NCBI GenBank assembly: GCA_037833965.1
Contig: AP031352.1
Span: 11,388,501 to 11,452,500, forward strand
Direction: 5' to 3'
Length of the DNA: 64,000 nucleotides
Origin: Marchantia polymorpha subsp. ruderalis
Lineage: Eukaryota; Streptophyta; Marchantiopsida; Marchantiales; Marchantiaceae
The notes beneath the pieces are model-generated. The model had not been told where the DNA came from. It saw only the letters and a program-made list of their open reading frames with translations, and did no database searches. Positions 1 to 34,373 of the stretch are shown in pieces (position 1 is the first letter of the stretch; every line of letters starts with the position of its first letter). A program made the translations under genes and the position numbers.

Positions 1-3000
1 GAATTGCGTCTTCATCTGCTGCGCTTACGGACGCAACCAGCCGATCCGGGTCGATTCGCAAGGGCGAGTCTCGTGCGGCCACATCGAGAGCGGCGAGCCC
101 CGGTTCAAGGATCTCTGCGCCGACGTGAGAATCGTGGATCCCGTGACCTGCGATGAAGTCAGCGAGGGCATTGAAGGCGAAATCTGGCTCAGCAGTCCGA
201 GCAATGGCAAAGGATACTGGGGCTTGGAGGAGCTGAGCAGAGAAATGTTCTACGCTCATGTTCGCAATGCCGCACCCGAAGATTGCACCAAATCGTTCGT
301 TCGATCCGGCGACCTTGGCCGAAAGATCGATGGGAACCTCTTTGTCACCGGTCGAATCAAAGACCTGATCATCGTCGGAGGCCGAAACCATTATCCGTCT
401 GACATCGAAAAGACTGTCGAGAGCTGCTCCAACATGCTCAAACCAGGTACCTTGAATCCTCTCCGAGCCCGAGGAATCTGAAATTGTGTCTGTATGTTAA
501 TCTGGATTCTTACCTTGATGAAATGCCGATTCGATTGTTTGGAAATATATCCTGTGTGGAATTTTATCCTGTGCGCTTACGAACTGAGCTCGATGAGCTG
601 ATATTGCTGAGCCCGCCTGCTGTGAAATGTCAGGGTGTTCGGCAGCGTTCAGTGTCTCGGCCAAGGTCCTGCGATCGAGAGGAGTGAGCCTGGCAGACGA
701 GGCAGATGGAATTGTGGTGGTTGCGGAAGTGAGGGACGAGAAGCAAGCGGATCTGACTGTCATTTCGAAGATAAAATCCGCCGTTGCTCAGGTACATGGA
801 CTGCAAGTATCATTCGTCAGTCTGCTCAGACCTCATACCATCCCGAAGACAACCAGCGGCAAGATCCGGAGACGTGAGTGTGCCAAACGATTCGCCGAAC
901 AAACTCTGGCGTCTGTGAGAATAGCAAACCTGTCCGTAGCTCAAGCTCGCCTTCGACGCAGTGCTCCCAAGGCTGCAGGTCTCGAGGCACAAGGGACGCA
1001 TCAGAGGCGACCTACGAAGGGCAAGAAGGAGATTTCTGATTTCCTCGTCTCGCTGGTAGCTGAGGTCTCAGGCATGCCAGAATCGAAAATCAGCTCGACG
1101 GAGAGCTTTGAGAGTTACAGTATTGACTCACATGGGGCGGTATCGGCGGCTTCCAAGCTCTCAGAATTCATCGGCACGCACATTTCGGCCATTCAAATCT
1201 ACACCACAGGTTGCATCTCTGAATTGGCGGACCTTTCTGTCGAAGTGATGAGGAAATCAAAGGCAGCATCTGCTGGCATTCCTCCCTTGCGTGAGGACGA
1301 AAGCGCAGTGCAACAAAAATTTGATCTCTCAAGGCCTGAGAGCGTCAATGAAGCACTCTCGGAAGCAGAGCTCGCAGAAGCTTTGGAGCCTACAAACAAA
1401 CGAAAGCTCTTCATTACCTCTCTCCAGGTACACTCGACACTCTAGATTCGAAATTCACTCCACAATTCATAGATCCGAGGTCCAATTTGACGTCAGCGAA
1501 AGTAGCTTGGTGGAGAAACTAATTTTTTTAGAAAACGGCATCTGACACTCCCTCCTATAACTGCAATTCTGACTTTTAATGCATTGCGATCCAGATCCTG
1601 GGAGTTCTGTACATGGGATTGATGCTCTTCTCACCAGCACTTTACATCTACAAGAAGCTGATATGGGCGATGAGCGCCGAGGAGTACAACACCTTCGGTC
1701 ACGTATTGCAGTCCACCGCTCTGGTGCCCCTGGGGTGGATGATATACACGGCCTCAGTCGGATTGATGCTTTCGATGCTCGGAGCGCGCATGCTGCTTCC
1801 GATGAACCACCAGTTAGTAACGATGACGATACCACTCTGGTCCGTGGAGTACGTGCGATGGTGGACTCTGTACAGGCTGCAAGATTTCGCTTCCAGCTCC
1901 ATGGCTGCGCAGTTAAGGGGAACAGGCATGCTCGGCTTATGGTATCGCTTGCTCGGAGCCGACATTGAAGACGGCGTTTTCCTCGACACTATTGACATCA
2001 CTGATCCGTGGCTCGTCTCCATCGGCAGAGACTCTTGTATAGGAGAAGGGGCGACCATCCAGTGCCATGAAGTCAATGCAGGAGTCGTTCGGTTCCAGAG
2101 TGTGAGTGTTGGTCGAGCTTGCGCTGTGGGTCCATATGCCGTTCTTCAGAGGGGCAGCACTTTGGAAGCTGGTTCGAGCGTCGGTGCATTGTGCAAAACT
2201 GAAGTCGGAGAGCATGTTCGGTCCACAGGAAACACTGAGGTACACATATTACAATTGAGAGCTCGATATAGAATCCTTGCTATGACAATATATGTGTCTT
2301 TCCAAGAGTTTCTAGCGTCAATTTCGTCTTCTGGCCAGATACTTTGGAAAGTCGAGTGTATGTCCGCCATCCAATCGCTGACTCGAAGTAATTGATCAAT
2401 CTTCTTCATTGATGGCAATCCACCAGATTACTTGTAAGTCCTTCATTTGGCCACTGTGACAGTGGTGAGCATTGAGTTGCTTCCCAATCGAATTGCTTCC
2501 CCTGTTATTGAGTTTTGCCTTGAATCAAACTGTGCACAGATGAGCTCAAAGGGATCGAAGCATGCATCGAACTGGTCACTAGAGATCGCTGCAAAGCAAC
2601 TTCTCGGGCTCTACTCGGTGGGTCTGGTGTCGAGCCTGGCTGCATTGGCAGCATATATCGTTCTCACAGAAAGTGGATCTTACTTCGGAGTGCTCAGTGA
2701 TGGCACATGTAAGGCCATAGGCAGAGAAGCTTCGAACCATGGCTACCTCCTGCTTTCTCTGACTTTGACGTTCCCCAAATATCTCATGATATTTCCGCCA
2801 CTTCTGATATTTCCACAACATCCTGGCCTCCTACTCGAGCTCTTGAAAGATGTGGCTAATCAGGGCAAGGTCGTAGCAGCTCTGACTGCATTTGGGGCTG
2901 GATACCTCGCTTACGGAGTCACGCTAGCCGCACTCACTTGTGCTCTCAAATGGAGCGTCATCGGCAGCATGCAGGAAGGAACCAGCAGCCGTAATTCTTA

Positions 3001-6000
3001 CCGAAGGTGGTTCGTACATGCCTTACTGCGAGCCACACATGATAGGTTCATGAGCTTGCTGCAAGGAACCGAGGCCCTGTGCATCTACCTTCGCATGTTG
3101 GGTGCTGACATCGGCCAGCGTGTGTCCATTCGAAAGATTAATGCCGTCATAGACCCGGATCTCATCAAACTTGGAGATGACTGCCACTTGGGGGATTTTT
3201 GCAAGATTATAACCACGGAAACTGTCCAAGGTGATAATATTAGAAAATCGGAATTTTCACCCCTCCGAGTTCGAAGAAGCAATTAGAGTTTCTCAGAACT
3301 CCATTTCTTTGTGCTCGAATCCTTTTCCCGGTTGCTCTTTGAGTTATGCATCGTACTTAAAACTGTAGTTTTCTGTGGTGTAGGTGGGGTGATGTCATCG
3401 GCCTCTGTAAGCATCGGACGTCGTTGTGTTGTTGGAGCTCAGAGCGTTGTTATGCCTGGATCCACGCTTGAAGATAGGTCCGTTCTCGGGGCTATGTCTG
3501 TCGCACCCAGAGGGGCAACACTCGAGACGGACGGTGTATATGTGGGAGCCCCGATTCCCGTTCGAGTGAAAGGCACACAGCCCAGTCACAAGACTGACAG
3601 AGCTAAACCAGCCAAGGTGACTGCACTAAAAATGTCACATAGTCGCTGATGCTGATCAAATGTATCTCGAAGTTAGAAAAATTAGACTGCACTTAGTAAA
3701 AATCAATCGATAGAAATGAGTAGTGGGAAATAGTAGTGATTGGATATACTGTGAAACGTATACTTGGCAAGCAGTTATGATTCTCATACTGTACGACTAA
3801 AGATTTGTGTCTATGCAATACATGCTTGCCTTATATATGCATCACAATCTGATTCTGCGAGTGAAAATTGAACATTTGATACTGCAGATCGAACCTCAGA
3901 TCGGAACCCCCGAAAGCTTCGTGGCTTTCAATGAATGCCCGCTTGCATTCAACATGGATCCACGCTTCCGGCAGATTGTTGGAACCTGTGCAGGAGAGTT
4001 TGCCAGGAAAACTGCCAAGGGACACCACCGCTACATCCACTCCCTCGGAGCCTCTGGCAAAGGAACTCTGCGCGTGCTTAAAAATGTTCCAAATCTTCCT
4101 CCTCATGATATATTCACACCAGGATCTACGTATCCTGTTTTGATCAGATACAGCACCGGGAACTCCAAAGATGACGACAGGTATGGCATTTCGTACCTTG
4201 CTCCTGCAAATTCCTTTGAGTGTTATGATGAAAATTGGAGCACGAGGTGTCAGAAGTAGTTCCTCGAAGCAATCAGAAGACTTTCCAGATTCAAAGCTGA
4301 GATTTTGGCCATGGACAACAGGCGCGCCGAAGTGAGAGGAGCGACCATGCGTCTTCTCCACAAGGACTCGCCGGACGACCTTGAGAATCCTCTGCTCGAC
4401 CTTTTAATGAAGACGGGAACAATTTTCCACGCACAGAACATGGTCGACTTCATGGGCTATTACATCATGACTGAAGAGGAGCGAGTGCAGAAAATCAAAG
4501 AGTTTCCTCCTCTCGGTGAATCTCAGTGGTTGAACATCCGGAGACCGAATTCATGGGCCGACCTCCATTACTATGGCTGTACTTCTCGCTACTTTGTCAC
4601 GAAGCCGCAAGAAGGAGACCCAGAGGTATTTTATGTCCGATTTAAGATCCGCCCTGCCGATCCTCGAATTGGAGATGACATAGTAAATGTGCAGCGACAG
4701 GAAGACTTTCCACCTTTCGATGGGATGCTGCCAGTACTCCCTGATGACACCAGACCGAAGACCTGCTTGAGGGATGAGCTGAAAGCTAGGCTCGAATCCG
4801 CGGAGGGCGTGAAGTGCATCCTGCAAATGCAGCTACATCCGATTCCAACTTCCGTCGAAGAGCAAGAGAAAGTTCAAGACCCCACAACACTCTGGGATGA
4901 GACAGTCTGCCCATACATCGATGTTGCCGAGATATTCCTGGCTGAGAATTTAGATGATACGCTCTTGGACCACTCGAATTTCAATCCGAGATTCGCACCG
5001 CCCAGTCTTGCGATGATCACTGCTACCAGCGCTACGCAAAGTGCTTCCATCGACACAGCCAGAGCTCTCCTCCATGATCTCCTCACCTACATCAGAGCCG
5101 GCATCCCTCTTCCACCGCTTTGGTATGACCTTCTGAAGAAATCTCACTCCGATGTGCTAACCAGCAAACCGGACGACTCCCTTGTCGTAGCGAATGGCTG
5201 TCCCTTCTCAGGCGGTGTGGTAGCTTCGCAGGGCCACGACCATGAAGAGATGCGCAAAGGGGAAGCCGATGTCCAAATGAATGGTGGTCACCTTGAACAT
5301 GAAGTGGAGAAGAGTAAGTCAGTCGCCGGTGCAAGGAAAGATAGTATGCACTTGTCTGTGGGGCTAAAACTCATGCTTCTCGTGCAACCCATTGTTCAAT
5401 TGGGGCTTCCCATGCTCGTCTCGCTGCTGGCGGCCTGTCCAATTGTACTGACCCTCTTGTGGGTGGGCGCTGTGGCTGGAAACGACTGGATGCTTGGCTT
5501 ACTGCCAGTCGCGTTCCTTTGCTGGGGACTGATGTTTGCTGCTCTCGCCATAGTGTGCAAGTGGGTTGGTGTCTGGCGAGTCAGAGACGGAAGCACGAGC
5601 GATTTGTGGAGCCGCCGGACCTTTCTGCTGACGGTCTGGGAGTGCATCAACCAAACACTCGGAACGAGTTTTCTGGAGCTCGGCAAGGGCTCCGTGCTAA
5701 TCACACTGTACCTTCGATTCCTCGGTGCGTCGGTCAAGACGACAGGCATCTACATCGACACTCTGTATGCTCTGAACCCCGATCAGCTCAAGGTTGGATA
5801 CCGCAGTGCCATTGGGCGCAGTGCGCTTCTCTTTGGCCATCTTTACGAAGGAGAAAAAGTCGGATTCAAGTCGTGCGTCATGGAGGATGACACTTTCATA
5901 GGATCTAGAGCTCTGGTGCTTCCTGGATTCAGAATGGAAGATGGTGCCGAGCTTCAAGCGCTTGGATTGGGTATGAAGGATGAAGTCATTAAAGCTGCCT

Positions 6001-6008
6001 ACACGTAG
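1..6008 (+). CDS. Giant fusion: fatty-acyl-AMP ligase (C-terminal part), carrier domain, three membrane/beta-helix modules and catalase-like domain; 5' partial
   Basis: Seven exons in constant phase: 2-446, 634-1427, 1595-2239, 2540-3230, 3384-3616, 3888-4180, 4289-6008 (1606 residues, stop TAG). The gene enters from the left edge. Residues 1-240 are the end of an adenylate-forming enzyme of the fatty-acyl-AMP ligase type, with RSGDLG, GRIKDLIIVGGRNHYP and the A10 lysine in TTSGKIRR. A carrier domain follows with the phosphopantetheine serine in YSIDSHGAV (about residue 313). Then come hydrophobic segments alternating with left-handed beta-helix (hexapeptide) domains, near residues 415-625, 630-935 and 1380-1606. 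This resembles the C-terminal half of bacterial epsilon-poly-lysine synthetase (NRPS terminal domain TIGR02353). Between modules 2 and 3 lies a catalase-fold heme-type domain (PVLIRYSTGNS, RGATMRLL, HYYGCTSRYF). I infer a membrane enzyme that activates an acyl group, carries it as a thioester and modifies or transfers it. The product is unknown. Confidence 0.85.
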
Positions 6009-7538
6009 ATCAGAGAATTAGTTGCAGCATCAGTAGCTCCACCTCGGTATTCCACTAGGCACCCGCGCAGTTTTCTTAGATCCGCCATTATGTATCTGGT
6101 GCCTGGTGCCTGGTGACAACGAACTCGAAGATACCGCGGTTTTATTCTCTCTAGATACTTGAAGACGAACAAAAATCGTCGGCGGTAGAATTTGTAAATC
6201 TCATAGATGCCATAGGTACTGCAATTCATGTATCAATGTCTCACGATACATAAATTATTCATTATCAGGATGGGACTTAAATGGACTCGTGACTGTCTTT
6301 TTGAAAAATCAGTAGGATTGATCTTTCGACTTTTATATCGACACTTCTTCGGGAACATACATACAACTCATCATTAAATTCAGGAAAGCTCAACGCTCTA
6401 CATTGTGCCGTGTTGGGCATGAGGGTTAAAGCCGGTCTCACAATGTACAGGAGTGATGATTCACTTCGTCGCATTTCCAGTTTGGGCTCTTAAATTGTTC
6501 ACAATAGTGACAGGTCAGCTGATGATGAACCCCCATCTCGAGCCTGACTTGCATGTCAGGCTCGAGATGGAGGTTTGTACTAAAAGATCTTAAAGCGCAC
6601 TTAGCTTGGTGATCCCAGTCGTCCAGTGCCGAGATTTTCCATAAATTCTTAGTTCCTTCACTTTCTCTGTCTTGCGATCCCCTCATTTTTACTTCAACAA
6701 GTGGATCTGGAGCTACTGCTATCTTCAATATATTCAACTCCCTGCACTGCCCTGGAAACCAGTTCTCCAGTATACCAATCTTCCGAGGCACCTAGACTCT
6801 TTCCATCAGTCCGATGGAAAGAGTTCGCAGGTTTTTCGAGATCAAGATTTATAGTTTCAGGAAAAGGGGGAAGCCTAAATCCTACTTCCGCCATTCACTA
6901 ATGTTAAGCATTTCGATCCTCCCACCATCGGAGATTTCCTTAATCAATGGTATTCAGTTGCTTTCTGTAGTGAATGCCACACAGGACATTGTGCATACGA
7001 CATCCCAGGTGAGAATAAGGATGAGACTGAGCGGGACAGTTCTATGATAAACTCTGGACGGCAGTAATGTTGAGATTTGGCACGCTGAAACCTCGTCACC
7101 GAAACTGAAGAGCTTTAGCGTTTGATTCTGTCTGTCTCTGACGCTGGTTACAGTTGTAAGATTATCCAATTTACATGTCCAACGCAGCCTCTTTTCATCT
7201 CCGTAGATCACCGTGAGTTGCTCCAGGCACACACGAGACTCCCAAGCATTCCAAGCGTGCTGGCTGTAAATGCGAACCACCTCTGTCAAGGACACGACAG
7301 GTTCGAGAGTTCTGCAACTATTGCAATCTTCCGTCACTCAGATTCGACAGACTCATCGTCTACAGGTGAGGAAGTTTGAGATCTGTGTACTCTAAGGCGA
7401 ATGTCACTGTGGAAACCCACGACGCGCTTATCCTCTAACGATATACTTGAAGGTGGTGCATGTCGTGCACACAAGAGCACGAACGAGCCCCGCTACCGCT
7501 GACAACAGCGAAATACCATCAGAAGCCCACCTCAACAC
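6009..7538. other. Intergenic region, no gene recognised
   Basis: This holds the 3' flank of the acyl-ligase fusion and about 1.5 kb without a recognisable gene. Short open frames on both strands show no family motif. It contains two small inverted repeats. One is at 6533-6570. The other, near 6790-6820, has 12-base arms (ACTCTTTCCATC and its complement) around a 5-base loop. Confidence 0.5.
6533..6570. repeat. Perfect inverted repeat, 16-bp arms
   Basis: The arm CCATCTCGAGCCTGAC at 6533-6548 is followed by a 6-base loop and its exact reverse complement at 6555-6570. It lies 0.5 kb downstream of the acyl-ligase fusion. It could fold as a hairpin in a read-through transcript on either strand. 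No T-tract follows it. Confidence 0.8.
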
Positions 7539-11211: not shown

Positions 11212-13728
11212 AGTTGAGAATCATCGATGCAATTATGCAGGTTTCACTGCATCATGGGCAAAACTGGTGGGTATCACGTATATATAAAATTCTGATGAGT
11301 TGGATACCTATGCCTTATTGACTTATAGTTCTCCCCTTCCCTTCTTTTATAATTGAGATCTTATATGGAATAGAGGAGAGTGAGTGAGTGTCTGATCACC
11401 TGCAATAATACGCCACCTTCATCCTCCTTCATCTTGCTCCAAAGACAATCATGCTGAAATTTCCTTAGAGTTCAAATTTGGCGCAAATAGGAAACTGTCG
11501 AGATAAATACAAGCATAGTCAACAAAGGAGGTGGATGCTATGTACTCCACTGGCATCAAGAGTCGTAGGGAAAAATCAAATTAATTTGATGTCAAATTGA
11601 TTTCTCCCTAATTTACCACGTGGTAAATTCCTCAGAAAAACCTGTAATTACTTAGGTACATGAATCGTTGCTCATGTCATCTGTAATCAATCGACTCAAA
11701 GGATCCACTAGAACAAGCCTCCCTATTTAGACACAATAAGATTTTGATTTTACTCTTTAACTTCTATTTCGATATATCGCATTGCTCGATTCGTTTATCA
11801 TTTCTGCTGTACGTAAAGGTACACGACTTTGAGAATCCTCTAAGTTTAGGGACACACATGCTCCGATCAGAGACCGGGATGCGTGCATAGAACAGTGATT
11901 ACGAGGTGTCGAATTGCGCATGGCCTGAGCCTGAACCTCAGCAATTGTCTACGCTTGACACGACAGAGAACACTGACTGGGATTCTGGAGCTCACTTGAC
12001 GGCCACGTAAAACGAGCGAGGTCCTAGTTCACAGGACCTTGCTCGCAAACGGCGGTACAGGACATACGAATCATGCAATACATACTATTCCCAGGTCCAG
12101 CGTACCATGCGACTGATGCCAGTCATAAGCATCCAACATTGACAACAGTGTGCGAGTTTGAACGTGCATTGTCGAACTGCAGCCTTCATTCGTCCAGAAA
12201 CGAGAATCATGTCAGCCCGGTACCATTCTCCAACCGCTTGCCGCTACCACCATCACTTGCACCAGAACTGTTGTAGCTGCCCGATCAATCTGGGACCTGC
12301 AGATTCCACAACTGCAGCAGAGTAGTTCGTATCTAGCGCGTCTCGATGTCTGAAGCATAAATTTTGCATCTCTCACTGGAACTAAACTGCTCTGAACTTG
12401 TGCTGGTACTTGCTTCCAGTCCTAAAATCTACAGACTATCTTCTTCTCTGCTTTTAAAAGCTACCCAAATAAATATTTATAAATATATATGCTCTGAGAT
12501 CTAGTCCATGGTCCCCACAGCATCCGATTCACTTTTATACTGCGCGTTCATTGACCTCTCAAAGCACTGTCCACGTACACTGATTGCGGCTCGCAATAAC
12601 AGGCGACTGAGTACTCAAGATGCCAGTAATCACCGAATTAGATCGAACCGCGTCATGTACTTCACAATTTTACATCTCGTGGTCTTGCACGTATGTCGGC
12701 AAACACCGACATGTGAAAGAACTGGGCTTACAAGAAAAACTTTCGAGGCAGTATACTACCACCCGACTACTATACCTGCAATTATCATTATTCGTCCCGA
12801 AGACTTTCACTTGTACTCTGTCTGGATTCACAGGCTCTTAACTGGAGCAAGTGAAATGTTATTACATGGATGATCAAATTCATTTGTGTAACCACAATAA
12901 GGGAACCGGACAATAAGATGACAATGTTCGGGGTTTAGAACAGCTGTGTCCATTCCATAGCGACTGGCTCGTGAAGTGTGGAAACAAGGTCGCTTTTTGG
13001 TCAATCTCTGTTCAGGGAACCAAAGATAACATTATTATAACCTACGTCTAGTCCGATGGACAGGTGGATTGAAATGACCATTGAGCGAAAGATTCGATTT
13101 TCTGAACTTATACAGAACGTTTCGCAGATCAGCTGAACACGTGCGCAGAGTGTATTCCCACTCTCTGGGCATCACTCCCTCCAGTAGATCTAGAGTCTGG
13201 CAAGAAAAACAATATCAAGGTAAATCAGATCGCCGAAATTTCACTGCTTTCTAATAAGCCCGCTTGGTGCTTATCCTCTTCCCATCCACCTGCACTGCTG
13301 ATGAAGGCCGCAAGAGAAGAAATGCCAAGTGGAAGGGATCTAATGAAACACGCAATTTTGCAGTACAAGTCGTGATTGCTTCATGAAATGTACAGGCGGT
13401 TCATAGAACATCGATGAAAGCCGCCACGTCCGAACAGAAGACGAGAGCTGGCCCGTACTGGATGTAGCTTAGTCTTACTGTCGGCTCCGTGGGGGTGCTC
13501 CTGCAATGATCACTCAACAATTCTTCGTTGACTTCCGAAGCTTGAGCCTCTCGAGGGCTCAAATCTAGTCTAAACTCCTGCTGATCGCATTTGTAGCATT
13601 TTAAAGATAGGAGATCGACGTATACTTTAAGACCAGCTGCCTTCTGGGAATGAGTTCAGTCTTACTTACCCAGTGCACGTGTGGTCAGCTACTTTGGGAT
13701 CAGGTCCTCAGTTTGTTTTTCTGCAGAC
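11212..13728. other. Intergenic region upstream of the P450
   Basis: This holds 2.5 kb without a recognised gene. The short open frames here (for example 12508-12873) show no family motif. The last few hundred bases presumably contain the P450 promoter, but I could not mark a convincing TATA box. Confidence 0.4.
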
Positions 13729-16694
13729 ATGGCTGCGATTGTTCTCATAATCTGGACTCTTCTGATTTTGCTCATCACAACGGCTGTAAGAAAATTCAAC
13801 AACTGGTGGTATGAGCCGAATGAAAAGTCTCTTGCTGCTCCCCTTCCACCAGGTGATCTAGGCTGGCCAATATTTGGTCACATGTACAGCTTCTTGCGGG
13901 CATACACATCTTCCAATCCTAATGCGTTTACAGATTCCTACCTTGAGAAGTGAGATGCTTAACTCTATCTCCTCTATCTCTATTGCATGAAAGACTGGCA
14001 TTTAAGACATTTCACGTTTTATCATGCCAGAAAGAGATCGTTTTGGGGATCTGTGCAATGTTACTTAGTTTCATATCCTCATAAGTTCTGACATGCTTAA
14101 AATTTGCTCTCCTTGCTCAGATACGGAAAGTTGGGATTGTACAAAACACACCTCTTCAGCCAGCCAACGATATTGACGACGTCAAGCGATGCATACAAAT
14201 GGGTCACTGCCCACGGAGACCATTTTCTTCCAGGCTGGCCAGATTCCTTCAATATGCTATTCGGTTGTAACTCAATTTCACTTTTGGCTGGGGACAAGCA
14301 CAAGCGTATGAAGAGGCTTACGGGTCCATCTTTGCAAGGAACTGACACGCTAGCAAGGTTTGCACTGCAAATAGCCGAAGAAGACGTCAGAGAGCTTGAG
14401 ACCTGGGCCCGCGAGAAGGTGATCAACACCTATGATGCCGTAACCAAGGTGACATCAACTTCTGCTTCTCGTAATCTCTGAGGGTCCATCACTGTTAGTT
14501 TAAGGCACTTAGCTATTGCATTGGCCTTTCCTACTAGACCAAAAACCCCAGGAGCCGTTCGTACAAGTGGATTTAGAATGTGACTTTCGATCTTTTGAGC
14601 CACGCCCTGAATGGATTGTAGACAAGGAATATTTTTTAAAGCTACTGCATTTCCCTAAGCTTACGTGTAGGATTGAGCTGTCTTGATGTTCTCTTTGTCT
14701 TTGGATCCGGTTAAACCCTCAAGCTTGATCGAACTATCTGTATTGGATTCGCAGTTGATATTTGACAGGATGATGAAGATTCTAATCAGTTGCGAAGAAC
14801 GATCTGAGCTGGACGAAATTGCCAGGATTTTTTCCAAGTTTATACTCGCAGTACGAGCTATCCCGATTAATCTTCCGGGAACTGCACATCACAAAGGCCT
14901 CAAGGTAACTGCTGTACTTTATATTTTCAAAGTCATCTGATTTGAATTGGTTTCAGAGGCCTTTGAAAATGTACTGTCGCAATAGAATGCTTCGCTTGAA
15001 CAGTTTGGGATTGCCATGCGTCCAAACAAATGAAAATATGTCAGCACATTCACATAGATTCTTCTGAGAGATGTTTAGGAGTGGAACTTAACGATTCAAT
15101 TTCTGAACGACAGTCTTTTGAATGCTTGTTCTTAATTTGGCTAAGGTTATATTTCCAGGCACGGCAGAGGCTACGTGAGAAGCTGACACCAGTCATTTCT
15201 CGAAGACGAGCAGGTGAGCGTAAAGATGATGTTCTGCAACTGTGGATGGATCAATCTGATGACGATGGACAACCGATGACCGATGAAGAACTCCTGGATA
15301 TGATCGGAGGCTATATGATTGCTGGGCACACGGGCTCTGCTCTCAGTCTTACATGGTTCATGATTTTTATGAATGAGCATCCAGAAGTGCTCGAGAAAGT
15401 TCGGGTACAACATATAAACTCACTACTACTTGATGGTTTGTCTGCAATCAGTAAAGCTAGAGAACTAAGAAAGCAGCGGATCTTTCAGTGACACCTGTCT
15501 TAAGTTGTGATCAGTTCTGAAGTTGTGAAGTTGTGATCTCGTTAGGAGTTGATGAAAGCCTGGATTCACTCTAAATTTCTTTAATTTATGTGCAGGTGGA
15601 AGCTCAAGAAGTCCGGAACACAAAACCCCCCGGAGAACCGCTGAGCTATTTCGACACCCGGAGGTTGAAGTATCTTCGTCATGTAAAGCTCCACCATCTT
15701 GCCTTGTCGGTTGATTTGCCATCTCGATCTCTCTTGATGCCAACTAGGGTGATATAGGAATCCTAGAGAAATCATCCCGACAACTAGAATCAAACGCAAT
15801 CTGGAACTCGCACATGTCTCCTTTAGATCAGACAAATATGCCGGCCAACCTCCGAAATGAATGTCTTCGGTTGAACTGAGTATCGTCTGCCTAAAGGGGT
15901 GTAGGTACATGACGAAATTCTGCGCATTGTGAATATTGCACCTTTCACCTTCCGAAAGGTGAAAGAAACGAGCACTATCAATGGCAAGTCTCTTACCTCG
16001 TCCGTTCATAGTCGGAACAAAATCGATGAGAACTGAAACTGATGGATGGAGAGATCATTGCAACTTCGAGCGATCTCATCAGTTACGTGAGTTGTGAATC
16101 TACAAAGTTCCTTAACAGCTAATTCGGCCACAGGTTTCACCATCCCGAAAGGTTGGAGAGTGCAGCTGATGTCTCGAGCTATTCATTACGACCCCGACAT
16201 TTACGCCAATCCATATGTCTTCAAACCAGATCGATGGATTGTGAGCCCCAAACTGAAGCACTCTAGCTCTTCTTATTCTGTGCATTCCTTAGAGCGGCGA
16301 ATTGCCAACAGCAATGTCAGGGTCATCATCAGTATCCACTGTCGTTGCATTGCAGGGTCGACTTCTCAAGCCAGGACAGTTCGCTGCTTTCGGTGAAGGT
16401 CAGAGGGCATGTCCTGGCCAGCAGTTCGCAAGACTCAACGTTGTTATCATTGCCTACTACTTAGCTTTGGATTACAAGTGAGCCTGTCTACTCTCTCGAA
16501 CCCCGAATATCTATCTCCTTCTGAATTTCCATTCATCAGTGTTCCATCAGAGAGATCTCAGGAGCTCATTTTCGGTGTCAAATTTCTGTCACAGGTGGGA
16601 GCCTCTCAAATCAACGTACAAAACCAAATTTCTCCCCCATCCGCATCCGACATGCGGGTACCCTGTAAAATTCACTCGTCGTGTGTGCAGCTAA
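13729..16694 (+). CDS. Cytochrome P450, CYP85 clan, CYP88 / ent-kaurenoic acid oxidase-like
   Basis: Nine exons in phase: 13729-13949, 14121-14448, 14755-14904, 15159-15404, 15596-15682, 15905-15983, 16134-16240, 16356-16477, 16595-16694 (479 residues). An N-terminal membrane anchor (IVLIIWTLLILLITTAV) precedes a proline hinge, LPPGDLGWPIFGHMYSFLRA, a run characteristic of CYP88. The K-helix ExxR is EILR in exon 6, the PERF-type block is FKPDRW, and the heme loop is FGEGQRACPG with the cysteine thiolate. Exon 6 ends with the non-canonical donor GCAAGT; the resulting GC-AG intron restores INGFTIPKGW. The I-helix reads AGHTGS where the family has an acid-alcohol pair (AGHES or AGxDT), so normal oxygen activation is in doubt. 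Known relatives oxidise ent-kaurenoic acid at the ER. Substrate here is inferred from similarity only. Confidence 0.9.
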
Positions 16695-19342: not shown

Positions 19343-20645
19343 ATGGCCACTTCAAGCTTAGCACTAAGATTTTTCTTTCTCCATATGATATACGGAGGAA
19401 TCGTCAACGGTGAGATTGCCATCAAGACCCTCTTCCTTTTCCTTCAGATCATCGTGTATGTGTGTACAATCAGTGAGAGTGCCCAAGACTTGGCATACCG
19501 CAGATGCATACGGCTCTTTGGCAGGGAATTGAACTGCGAATGACGTCCCCAGTAACATCCACGGCGTGACTCATTTTGCCCATGCAGGTTGTGTGATCAC
19601 AATCGGTAACAACTGCAACGATAGCGTCACAGCATGTTCTCAAAGCGGACAACAAGACATTATTCAATTCAATCTGAGCGCGGGAACCTCACAATTTATC
19701 GATCTGGGCACGGTTTGTAGCTGGCCATCTGCTGTTGTGTATGCCTCCGTCACGGGACAGTGTGCAGTTACAGGGACTCCTAACGCGGCCACGGATAGAA
19801 ACTTAGCCAACTTAGCTGAGTTCACAATCCCTGGCACTAGCAATCAAGACTTTTACGACCTGAGCAACGTTGTGAGTATTTCTTTCCTTTCCGATAGGCT
19901 GGATCGCGTTGGATTGAGTTCTTAGTTCTTTAGATCTTCCGATGGGGATGAATATCGGAAACAACTATAATGCATCTGAATTTGCATATGTGATAAGGTT
20001 CGATGGCAGTGCAGTCATCTCTTGTTCTCATCAGTGCGGATCTCTTTTTGTATGAGTATATGAGCCATGTGAACAGATCTACATAGAACTGAATTCTGTG
20101 CCGCAATCTCAGAAACTTGAATCTACTGTCATTCAACGAGAAACAGAAGCTAAATGCATACATCAAAACTTCTTATCACTGATCGTATTCATCATTTGTT
20201 GCTTGAACTCCCTGCAGAATGCTTATACCATACCCATGTCTATCCGTGCACCCACAGGCTGTCCTTCCATAAACTGTTCCATCAGCGACATCAGGTAAAC
20301 TCGTATCTTTTGATCAATCTCAAAGTTCCAGAACATGCTGAAGTGCATAGCTCATTCAGCAACCGGCTTGTTGGTACAATCACGACAACTATTCTTTTGA
20401 ATCATGGAACTTACTGTTTTTTAAAAAACAGATCTTTCTGTCAGCCCAACAACGTTCTACACACTGAAGTCAATGGTGCCCTCTCTTGCGTCAACACCGA
20501 TGGAACTGCCGGACTGGGACCTACAAATGGCACAATGCAGTTCAAAACTGCATGTCCTGAAGCTTACAGCTACAACTTTGATGATGCAAACTCTACCTTC
20601 ACATGTCCAACAGGCTCCGACTATGAAGTCGTCTTTTGTCCCTGA
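19343..20645 (+). CDS. Thaumatin-like protein (PR-5 family), secreted
   Basis: Four exons in phase: 19343-19409, 19588-19871, 20218-20294, 20432-20645 (213 residues). Exon 1 encodes almost exactly a signal peptide ([19 protein letters not shown]). The mature part carries the family blocks in order: an EFTIPG-like strand, [16 protein letters not shown] (family YDxSxVxGxNxP), a cysteine-rich middle, and the diagnostic C-terminus [15 protein letters not shown] followed by [16 protein letters not shown]. The mature protein has about 12 cysteines rather than the usual 16, and the normal N-terminal NxCxxTVWPG strand is replaced by [13 protein letters not shown]. Plant relatives are apoplastic and antifungal, and some bind or cleave beta-1,3-glucan. 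Function here is inferred. Confidence 0.85.
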
Positions 20646-30230: not shown

Positions 30231-33117
30231 ATGGAACCAGTAAGCTTGACCGTTTCGCTCGCTCAAACTCTGCTCCAGACGGTGACTCGTGCGATTACAT
30301 GGTGGAATCAGACGGAAAACGCCGAGGTAGCCGAGGAGCTCAGCTTGTTTGCCAAGAATCTCAAGCATAACATTGGCGTGCTGAGCTGGAGAAAAGTGGC
30401 CAAAAACACCACCTCAACTTACGCAATTGGTACATTAACCCCTCGACCCCCCACGATCCAAACACCTCCGAGTGCAAGGCTTCGAGATGAAACAGATTTC
30501 CACAATTTCCACTTGACCGGAGAAACTCAGAAACGAGCGGAGAAAGAGCTGTCGAGAGAAGCAATCGAGACGATCGTGAGGTCTTAGTGGTTGAAAGTGC
30601 AAATGGAGTTGGTGGAGTTCTTGGCCAGTGTATGCGCACAAGCTGAATAATCAATCGGTGGCGTTACATTGTTTTGTAGAGGCTCTACAGGGGGATCTTC
30701 GGCGAGGGCAGAAGGATGCAGAGAGAATTTTGATGGAAAATGTCGTCGAGTCCTTATGGCACGCCACGAAAACGATGTCCGAGCTCTTGCTGATCCACCA
30801 GCGAGTTATAACCTCGTTCCAAATCCAGCTTTTGCTCATCATCGTCGATGTATGCTTCTGATCCACTGTCGGATTCCCTTTTTTTCTCCTTGACCTGCCT
30901 GCATCATGATGATGATGATGATGATGATGGCCTGCAGCGTGAGTGCATAATTCCATACTGACAGAACCGGATCGCTGACGACTTCTTGGTGTGATTCGAC
31001 TTTCTTCGACTTTTGACAAATTCGTATAACAGTATCGTCAATTGAGAGCAAGCGCATATAGATCTACCATTCCAAAAGCTCGAGGCCTCAAACTGCACGT
31101 CTGGCTCGACAACGAGTTCTGCATGGGAGAGTTTTGGTAGCACCAGGAGAGCAGTGGAAAACATCGGAGAGCGGAGCGTTGTAACATACGAGGGTGCTCT
31201 GTGTGAATGCTTGTCTGTGTGATCGAGCAGGTGACTCTCGACAACAAGGAGATGCAGAAGTTCCATGCTGCAGTGGACCGCATGCAAGCGGAGTTAGTCA
31301 CAGCGTACGCGACCACGAACGCCGCCTCGACCCGGAAGGAGCTCAAGGCTCATATGCGCAAGGACTTGCAAGAGATGTTCGTCCCGCTGCTGGCGGCGAT
31401 GCGATCTCACGGCCAAAGCATCGAGGAAGTGATCTGTATCATCAAAGGAGACGAGCGGCAAGCTCAGACGGATGATTTGGAGAAAATCTTTGCCGATGTA
31501 AGAAGCCCGTGACGCTCCAGATTGTACATCCCTCCATGATCGTGAATTGAGAGAGAAATTTCGCATCGCATCGCATCGCATCGCATCTGATTTCGGCCTC
31601 CAGGTACAGATCTACAGATCTATCTTCCTAGGCCATAGATCACAGTGGGGACGAGCGCTGGTGCCGGAGAGTGACTCCTTGACATGGTGCTTGTCTCTGC
31701 AGCTGGTGGCGGCGGCTCATGAAAGGGACGGCCCCGGCAGCAGCAGCAGCAGCAGGAGGGACAAGACGACGGCGATGGAGCCAGTGTCGAGCTCGGGATT
31801 TTACAAGTCCAACACGCTCAAGTGGTATCACGACCCCATCACGTGGGAGGTCATGTGCGATCCGGTGAAAGCCAGCGATCGGAGAACGTACGACAGATGG
31901 ACACTGATTCACCATGCCAGCAGTATGAAACTGAGCCCATTCGACAGGAGCCCGCATCTGCAGATCATCTTCGATGACATCGACGTGAGGAGTCGATTGT
32001 TTCAGAAGTACCCCGAGCAGGAGGAGATTTATCGGACCCTGCGCAGTCGGTACCGGCAGCAAGCTCTGGAGAAAGCCAACGGGGAGGATTGCAATCCCGA
32101 CGAGGTGCTCGTCATGCTCAACCACGTGCTGGCCTGGGCGGAAAACGACGACGAGTGTCGTGCCAAGCGCGATGAAATGCTCATGCGCGTTTCCCGATCC
32201 AACAACGACGACATGCTCTCGTCTTCGAGCTCCGGTTCCGTCTCCAACAACCCGATGCAAATCTCATCTTCAAGTATGTATGGCGGCATCATCAGCACCA
32301 CCATTTACAGTGCTCGATATATGTCTTCGCGTGCACCTGCACCGCATCGAGCCCACTCGTTTGATACATGGCTTTGAATGCTCCTCATCCTTCATCTTCT
32401 TCACTTTCATGGCACATGTAAGGAAGGCATCAGGGAAGGACATTCATTCGATTCATCTTGATCCGAAATTTCAGTCCATTTGCTCGCAACTCTGTCACGG
32501 ACATGTTTTGGAAAGAGTTCTGGTACAGATTTCAATCCAAGCCTCAGAATCACGGCCCGAGATCGAGTCACTGAATAGATAACGGATGTTCGTGAACGTG
32601 GCTGGCTGCTGCAGATTCGAGCATAGACTCTCCGGAATTTCCCCAACTCATGTCATGGCTGGAACGAGCGTATGCGGAGAAGACCAAAGGAGACGCGGCA
32701 TTCTCGGAAGGGAACTACGGAGAGGCCGTGGAGTACTTCACTTCGGCCATCTTTCTTGCACCCCTGAGCGAGTCTCTCTACTCGAAACGTTCTGCATCGA
32801 ACGCGTTCCTGCACAATTACCAAGAAGCTCTGGAGGACGCGAAAATCGCCTTGGAGTTGAATCCCGACTGGGCTGAGGGCTACTTGAGATTGGCGACGGC
32901 CTATCAGGGAATGAAAAATCATCGGGAAGCCATCGCTGCGTACAAGAAGGGGCTCGAGTCCGATCCCACCAATGAAGCGATAAAATCAGGGCTTGCAGCA
33001 GCGCAGGGGGCGCATTGGAAAGAGAAGGGGTTCAAATTCATCTGCTCGCAAAGTCATCTGCTCTATCTCGTTATATCATTCCTGACCCTCCGAGTCCTCC
33101 AGAAGATATCTCCATAA
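30231..33117 (+). CDS. Helical-bundle / U-box / TPR protein, probable E3 ubiquitin ligase or co-chaperone
   Basis: Five exons in phase: 30231-30429, 30680-30849, 31231-31497, 31703-32273, 32615-33117 (569 residues). Residues 1-215 are alpha-helical and resemble the N-terminal four-helix bundles of plant U-box and MLKL/MCA-type proteins. A serine/arginine linker leads to a U-box around residues 235-310 (YHDPITWEVMCDPV, then RRTYDRW and SPFDRSP; family DPI..E.M.DPV....TY.R). Residues about 410-530 form three TPRs of the HOP/STI1 type (AYAEKTKGDAAFSEGNYGEA, AIFLAPLSESLYSKRSASNA, ALELNPDWAEGYLRLATAYQ). Such TPRs dock the EEVD tail of Hsp70/Hsp90, and a U-box recruits E2 enzymes. The order U-box then TPR is the reverse of CHIP. 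The last 40 codons after WKEKG are unlike the domain and may reflect a missed intron. Confidence 0.8.
30903..30929. repeat. ATG/CAT trinucleotide microsatellite
   Basis: An uninterrupted GAT/ATG run in intron 2 of the U-box/TPR gene. It creates a poly-histidine stretch on the minus strand that is not a real protein. Confidence 0.85.
31561..31587. repeat. Pentanucleotide microsatellite (TCGCA)n
   Basis: About five copies of TCGCA lie in intron 3 of the U-box/TPR gene. Confidence 0.85.
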
Positions 33118-34101: not shown

Positions 34102-34373
34102 GAGGAAATTATAATCATTACATACTCATATTTAACTATTTATAAATCAAGAGTTTAAGGTAAGCTCAGGTTAAATGTGGAAATTGAAAATGAGGAAATT
34201 ATAATCATTATATACTCATATTTAACTAATTTATAAATCAAGAGTTTAAGGTAAGCTCAGGTTAAATGTGGAAATTGAAAATGAGGAAATTATAATCATT
34301 ATATACTCATATTTAACTAATTTATAAATCAAGAGTTTAAGGTAAGCTCAGGTTAAATGTGGAAATTGAAAAT
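34102..34373. repeat. Tandem repeat, three copies of a 90-91 bp unit
   Basis: Units start at 34102, 34192 and 34283 with GAGGAAATTATAATCATTA and end with TTAAATGTGGAAATTGAAAA. Copies differ by one or two bases and one single-base indel, so the array is young. Confidence 0.95.

Follow-up and report, generated by a model that had tools for sequence, protein, structure and literature searches.

A predicted plant multi-domain protein joining isomerase-like, fatty-acyl-AMP ligase, carrier and catalase-fold domains with Pls-like membrane modules

The analyzed window of 64,000 bases corresponds to C3:11388501-11452500 of a plant genome of 241 Mb in 9 contigs, C3 being a contig of 32.6 Mb. The window opens inside a large multi-domain gene that is cut by its edge and starts 4.5 kb upstream, and the gene model was built with 19.5 kb of DNA extending upstream of the window (L006 positions given below refer to this fetched segment). 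The refined model has a start ATG at C3:11383952 and consists of 14 exons and 13 introns of 106-649 bases, with 7.4 kb of coding sequence for 2465 amino acids and no internal stops. The segment upstream of the window (C3:11383952-11388500) contains seven further exons as well as the 5' part of exon 8, and includes an FAD domain. The exon pieces and domains within the window are the following:

1-446, + strand: 3' part of exon 8, which begins 543 bases before window base 1; fatty-acyl-AMP ligase (FAAL, adenylate-forming) domain, based on the in-phase model, PF00501, and FAAL structures as best matches
634-1427, + strand: exon 9; FAAL C-terminal domain with IPKTTSGKIRR, carrier, linker, and start of the first predicted transmembrane (TM) helix
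1041-1235, + strand: phosphopantetheine carrier domain, amino acids 1155-1219 (1187-1251 in the numbering of the first model); PF00550, 4.1e-6
1595-2239, + strand: exon 10; TM/left-handed beta-helix module 1, amino acids 1284-1498; TIGR02353, 8.0e-22, and alignment
2540-3230, + strand: exon 11; initial portion of module 2, comprising two predicted TM helices and the N-terminal section of its helix domain
3384-3616, + strand: exon 12; remainder of the helix domain of module 2, followed by a linker; module 2 lacks the motif His
3888-4180, + strand: exon 13; N-terminal part of the catalase-fold (allene-oxide-synthase-like) domain, distal His1857 retained; 1u5u, 1e-17, and residue map
4322-6008, + strand: exon 14; C-terminal portion of the catalase-fold domain, ending near 5120, then linker, module 3, and the TAG stop codon
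5316-6005, + strand: TM/left-handed beta-helix module 3, amino acids 2236-2465, with the motif GHLYEGE beside HLYEDR of Pls C3; TIGR02353, 6.6e-13

Six GT-AG introns link the seven exon pieces of the window in phase, and the first stop encountered is the TAG at 6006-6008. The first-pass annotation had described a gene of seven exons in perfect phase. The phase and the pieces are borne out, but the gene is longer by the seven exons and the start of exon 8 that lie upstream; premature stops on joining the exons, which would have spoken against that description, were looked for and are absent from the 14-exon model. Twelve of the 13 introns are of the GT-AG type; the exception is a GC-AG intron (AAG|GCAAGT) that separates the FAD part from the FAAL part. 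Both alternative frames hold stops in every one of the 14 exons. The junction of exons 9 and 10 falls within a predicted TM helix (LFITSLQ|ILGVLYMGLMLF), which supports this join. The last acceptor was moved from 4277 to window position 4322, a placement with which allene oxide synthases align without a gap at that point, and the acceptor of exon 4, outside the window, was set at L006:6146 (formerly 6050). Both appear to be the better placements, since moving them removed insert-like stretches relative to related proteins, and the first splice model of 2512 amino acids was replaced for this reason. This first model was the query for the Pfam, TIGR02353/PRK05850, plasmid, and whole-collection searches, and was also used for the structure matches to 2b9w and 1u5u and for the alignments of the FAD and catalase-fold domains. 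The predicted protein carries in one reading frame, and in this order, the FAD domain, the FAAL, the carrier, modules 1 and 2, the catalase-fold domain, and module 3.

Bacterial contamination was considered as source of the gene and rejected on account of the spliceosomal introns and the 32.6-Mb contig. SBP-box genes are plant-specific, and SBP-box factors match in the genome carrying the gene and in none of the 14 control genomes; taken together, these observations make contamination very unlikely. The earlier view of a resident nuclear gene is thus supported by the introns and by the contig of a plant genome on which it resides.

The FAD domain (residues about 20-467) is of the amine-oxidase type (PF01593, 8.4e-20). 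Its nearest solved structure is 2b9w (5.7e-30; runner-up 4.1e-9), which has the PDB title 'putative aminooxidase' and which we take to be the polyunsaturated fatty acid (PUFA) isomerase of P. acnes. The FAD-binding N-terminal motif and the stretch YFPHVSS-D---G-Y-K-EG-QG are common to both. With the motif and the family similarity present, the plant domain can be described as isomerase-like on the basis of its sequence; it differs from the P. acnes enzyme in being fused to a FAAL.

The adjoining ligase domain (residues about 470-1105) matches PF00501 (2e-65) and PRK05850 (6.3e-102, yet under that model's own cut-off of 775 bits), and its best solved match is 7r7e (2.6e-96). Among the matches listed are eighteen solved sequences, seven of them titled FadD23, FadD28, FadD32 or adenylate ligase, three 'polyketide synthase', and four 'acyl-CoA synthase'; the remainder are one 'saframycin Mx1 synthetase B', one McyG, and two amino-acid adenylation entries, the last three ranking lowest and the two adenylation entries at the very end. 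Several of the differently titled ligases presumably are FAALs as well. According to the solved matches and PRK05850, the domain has its closest affinity to FAALs, ahead of CoA ligases and A domains. A reading of the ligase as part of an amino-acid NRPS was ruled out, since the FAAL model scores higher than the amino-acid adenylation model (341.7 versus 123.2 bits) and FAAL structures are the best matches. Compared with the A regions of eight bacterial Pls, the plant ligase has 21-33% identity in the aligned pieces. In the carrier, Ser1184 (codon 1128-1130), presumably the phosphopantetheine attachment residue, is retained in SYSIDS. The FAAL C-terminus and the carrier named in the first-pass annotation are therefore both present, and the domain search that it had recommended returned matches for FAAL, PP-binding, and TIGR02353, the last below its cut-off.

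The C-terminal half of the first model matched TIGR02353 in three stretches (8.5e-61) with 206.2 bits against a curated cut-off of 423.1, and modules 1, 2, and 3 each match this family by exon. Since TIGR02353 also matches in 13 of the 14 control genomes, in one of them over the cut-off, E-values below the cut-off are not in themselves specific for Pls; weak matches may reflect the helix fold only, and a direct comparison with eight bacterial Pls from plasmids carries more weight. In four of these eight (Sphingomonas, Azospirillum, and two Rhizobium), C1-C2 is matched by modules 1-2 in a single continuous alignment, but modules 1-2 also align to C2-C3, and module 3 has its best match in C3 of four Pls and in C1 of the other four, so that the module register is not fixed. 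The alignment of the His motif took in seven Pls, leaving out one from Rhizobium. In these, the His of HLFEDR occurs in C3 of all seven, in C1 of one, and in C2 of none; the plant protein keeps the His of the Pls C3 motif in modules 1 (CHEVNA) and 3 and lacks it in module 2. A simple hydropathy scan detected seven hydrophobic segments. Six are in the scaffold, with one, two, and three in or near modules 1, 2, and 3, respectively, and the seventh is inside the FAAL and probably is no membrane helix. Against solved structures, modules 1-2 produced 17 weak matches, mostly to helix-fold transferases and carbonic-anhydrase-like proteins (best 3.1e-5).

The plant protein thus resembles the Pls/PosA synthetases, such as epsilon-poly-lysine synthetase, in having a carrier followed by three tandem TM/left-handed-helix C modules. 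Unlike them it possesses a FAAL, a catalase-fold insert between modules 2 and 3, and an FAD domain in front; the adenylation domain of Pls is described as lysine type in a section of PMC7179176. Because the TIGR02353 score falls short of the cut-off and a FAAL takes the place of the amino-acid adenylation domain, the protein as predicted cannot be filed as a Pls member. Of the Pls-like (TIGR02353) scaffold proposed earlier, the resemblance of the three modules stands, but the family assignment does not.

The catalase-fold domain between modules 2 and 3 comprises about 365 amino acids and was not mentioned in the first-pass annotation. Its match to Pfam Catalase is weak and under the cut-off (0.0097), and its nearest solved structure is the coral allene oxide synthase 1u5u (1e-17). 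A map of the heme site covered eight positions in six sequences, the plant protein and five relatives. The distal H67 and the arginines R64, R102, R349, and R360 are retained in all six. The proximal heme ligand Y353 is Tyr in all five relatives and His2155 in the plant (codon 5073-5075), T66 is Thr in all five relatives and Ile1856 in the plant, and N137, which is Asn in three relatives and Ser in two, is replaced by Lys1934. The residue roles, R349 excepted, follow a part of PMC5617202, where Asn137 is also stated to be dispensable for catalysis. Of the features of an allene oxide synthase, the plant domain therefore has the distal His and the heme-site Arg, and on the eight-position map it lacks the proximal Tyr and the distal Thr and Asn. 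The heme pocket looks kept and its ligand changed. Given the substitutions Tyr353 to His, Thr66 to Ile, and Asn137 to Lys, allene-oxide chemistry possibly has been lost, and the heme part could be modified or inactive.

The catalase-fold query matched in 3 of 292 Cyanobacteriota genomes (best 34% identity, 2.1e-47), in none of 296 Actinomycetota genomes, and with two weak matches in 299 Pseudomonadota genomes, and the alignment of this domain as query matched in none of seven further genomes. The cyanobacterial proteins closest to the plant domain (34 and 33% identity) are two ORFs that also contain a lipoxygenase domain (4.3e-8 and 3.6e-11, respectively):

L048 9879-12350, + strand: allene-oxide-synthase-like and lipoxygenase domain, 823 amino acids
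L049 9627-12095, + strand: allene-oxide-synthase-like and lipoxygenase domain, 822 amino acids

The coral enzyme and these cyanobacterial catalase-lipoxygenase fusions share the catalase fold, the distal His, and the heme-site Arg with the plant protein, which differs from them by the absence of a lipoxygenase part, by the His at the position of the heme-ligand Tyr, and by being embedded in a FAAL/Pls-like protein. As a side observation, pNGR234a (L009 about 5940-6900, + strand) contains an allene-oxide-synthase-like reading beneath two annotated CDS ('catalase' and 'hypothetical protein'); the frame has stops further upstream, and annotation and reading seem at odds.

The occurrence of the architecture elsewhere was assessed in bacterial samples that are small relative to 97,973 species and whose phylum labels are inferred, the present genome being the only eukaryote searched. 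In these small samples, no bacterial protein with the same domain order was found. Among 72,556 plasmid records, matches numbered 54 for the C half and 1152 for the N half, with none covering at least 80% of either half; the FAD domain alone was matched by two records and the catalase-fold domain alone by one. The full-length protein gave seven stretches on genome contigs, none of them confirmed. A scan of bacteria with the FAD alignment yielded 103 stretches in 26 loci. When these loci were inspected with flanks of up to 10 kb a side, a weakly matching ligase (22% identity, 4e-7) was present in one, and neither the modules nor the catalase-fold domain were matched at 1e-5 in any. A query of FAAL, carrier, and modules matched in 201 of 299 Pseudomonadota genomes, with no row spanning both FAAL and modules among the matches listed. 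With carrier and modules as query, 3 of 194 Cyanobacteriota and 2 of 148 Bacteroidota genomes matched at 1e-8, in ORFs of 1320-1342 amino acids (ordinary Pls length) with one exception of 266. Absence elsewhere is not shown by these searches, and a restriction of the order to plants is not claimed. In the plant genome itself, a search with the N half (to amino acid 1019) found no second FAD/FAAL locus of the same kind among the best candidates scored. Eight of the 14 rows were the gene's own exons, and the other six (8e-9 or weaker) comprised five ligase-core matches and one nucleotide-binding match. TIGR02353 matched the genome in four stretches at the gene and in one short stretch on contig C2.

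A section of PMC8460268 (2021) describes an uncharacterized plant protein in which FAAL-like domains are flanked by HemY domains on one side and by catalase or amino acid oxidase domains on the other, that is, FAD oxidase-type, FAAL-like, and catalase domains in one chain as observed here. Judged solely by domain order, the present protein very likely is of the same family, and the fusion itself therefore is no discovery. The architecture had been regarded as atypical of plants in the first-pass annotation; the HemY-FAAL-catalase fusion of plants, however, was already on record in that section. The section names neither Pls-like modules nor affinities to isomerases or allene oxide synthases, and the Pls-like scaffold, these affinities, and the change of the heme ligand are new as far as the literature search goes. 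No other paper was seen to mention the architecture, none was found on the function of the present protein, and the portions of PMC12890914 and PMC9342972 consulted for this point contain nothing on it.

Sequence affinities give an even chance that the product of this one plant gene is a multi-enzyme of about 2465 amino acids, anchored in the membrane, that handles polyunsaturated fatty acids and passes the acyl group to an acceptor. The closest families of the FAD, FAAL, and catalase-fold parts act on fatty acids, and that of the scaffold couples carrier thioesters to free amines at a membrane, which points to a synthase of modified-PUFA amides or esters. In such an enzyme, the FAD domain would rearrange PUFA double bonds, and the FAAL would adenylate the fatty acid and transfer it to the carrier in thioester linkage. 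A peroxidized form would be processed by the catalase-fold domain, unless this domain is a remodeled one that binds heme or lipid. In Pls, such modules couple a thioester with a free amine at the membrane; here, the Pls-like modules would transfer the acyl group to an amine or hydroxyl acceptor, so that a modified PUFA would be released as its fatty amide or ester. An assembly-line enzyme for a lipid or lipopeptide-like product had been suggested before. The lipid line fits and is strengthened by the two additional domains, but the lipopeptide-like NRPS is not retained, as the FAD and catalase-fold domains move the reading to PUFA/oxylipin chemistry. The most specific form of the proposal, a single-chain membrane line of a land plant in which a PUFA is isomerized, oxidized, loaded on a carrier without CoA, and joined in the manner of Pls, with a catalase-fold heme domain whose Tyr ligand was exchanged for His, is a tentative one and has a minor chance of being correct as a whole.

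In plants, modified fatty acids are known as products of separate enzymes, and the textbook picture is not known to include such assembly lines. One plant protein that unites a domain resembling PUFA isomerases with a CoA-independent ligase, a carrier, a heme domain of the oxylipin type, and a scaffold like that of Pls would point to a new lipid class. The single-chain line proposed above, if true, would provide plants with a further route to oxylipin-type signals or defense lipids beside the CYP74 route. The Tyr-to-His exchange at a catalase-fold heme site poses a separate and sharp biochemical question.

The weakest join of the model is that between the FAD domain and the FAAL, from C3:11386346 to 11386996, where two adjacent genes are a possible alternative: the first, from C3:11383952 to about 11386376, would encode an FAD isomerase-like protein on its own, and the second, beginning at the in-frame ATG (MQRLVEY) immediately upstream of the exon 6 acceptor, would encode the FAAL, the carrier, the scaffold, and the catalase part. 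Such a division would accord not only with this ATG but also with the stop at the tenth codon past the GC donor (L006:6876) and with the match to the solved isomerase, which extends almost to the end of the isomerase chain and stops about 11 residues short of the end of exon 5. However, the GC donor and the acceptor are both phase 0, and plant FAAL-like domains with an N-terminal HemY fusion are described in the cited section of PMC8460268; we consider two genes unlikely.

Within the single chain, the main rival to the reading as a PUFA synthase is that the catalase-fold domain has moved past allene-oxide chemistry. The domain could be inactive or without heme, and the protein would then act chiefly as an acyl-amide or acyl-ester synthase of the FAAL-Pls type that has a redox partner, a serious possibility although on the doubtful side. 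Three of the eight mapped positions are altered in the direction that this would predict, including the Tyr and Thr kept in all five relatives, whereas the conservation of the distal His and four Arg in all six sequences is unexpected for a drifting domain, and histidine is able to ligate heme in other proteins. The odd heme-site residues and the finding of a single locus would also suit a degenerate or silent acquired gene that is functionless in the host species, but 14 open exons with 7.4 kb of coding sequence and stops in both other frames of each, together with the retained FAAL and carrier motifs, argue against it, and we regard it as highly improbable.

Outside the multi-domain gene, the following features were observed in the window:

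About 6531-6571: short-loop inverted repeat with almost perfectly matching arms (CCATCTCGAGCCTGAC), lying some 530 bases past the stop codon, spotted by eye
13654-16393, + strand: stretch some 8 kb downstream that probably contains exons of a cytochrome P450 gene, its extent judged by eye
19533-19922, + strand: weak thaumatin-like match (0.0034, under the Pfam cut-off)
31502-33114, + strand: adjoining ORFs with a U-box domain and TPR repeats, possibly one gene
34102-34373: 91-base AT-rich tandem unit in three copies that are 98% alike

The P450 gene is not assigned to the multi-domain gene. Of two pieces searched, 14101-14478 has no family match and 15000-15488 matches PF00067 (3.4e-10).
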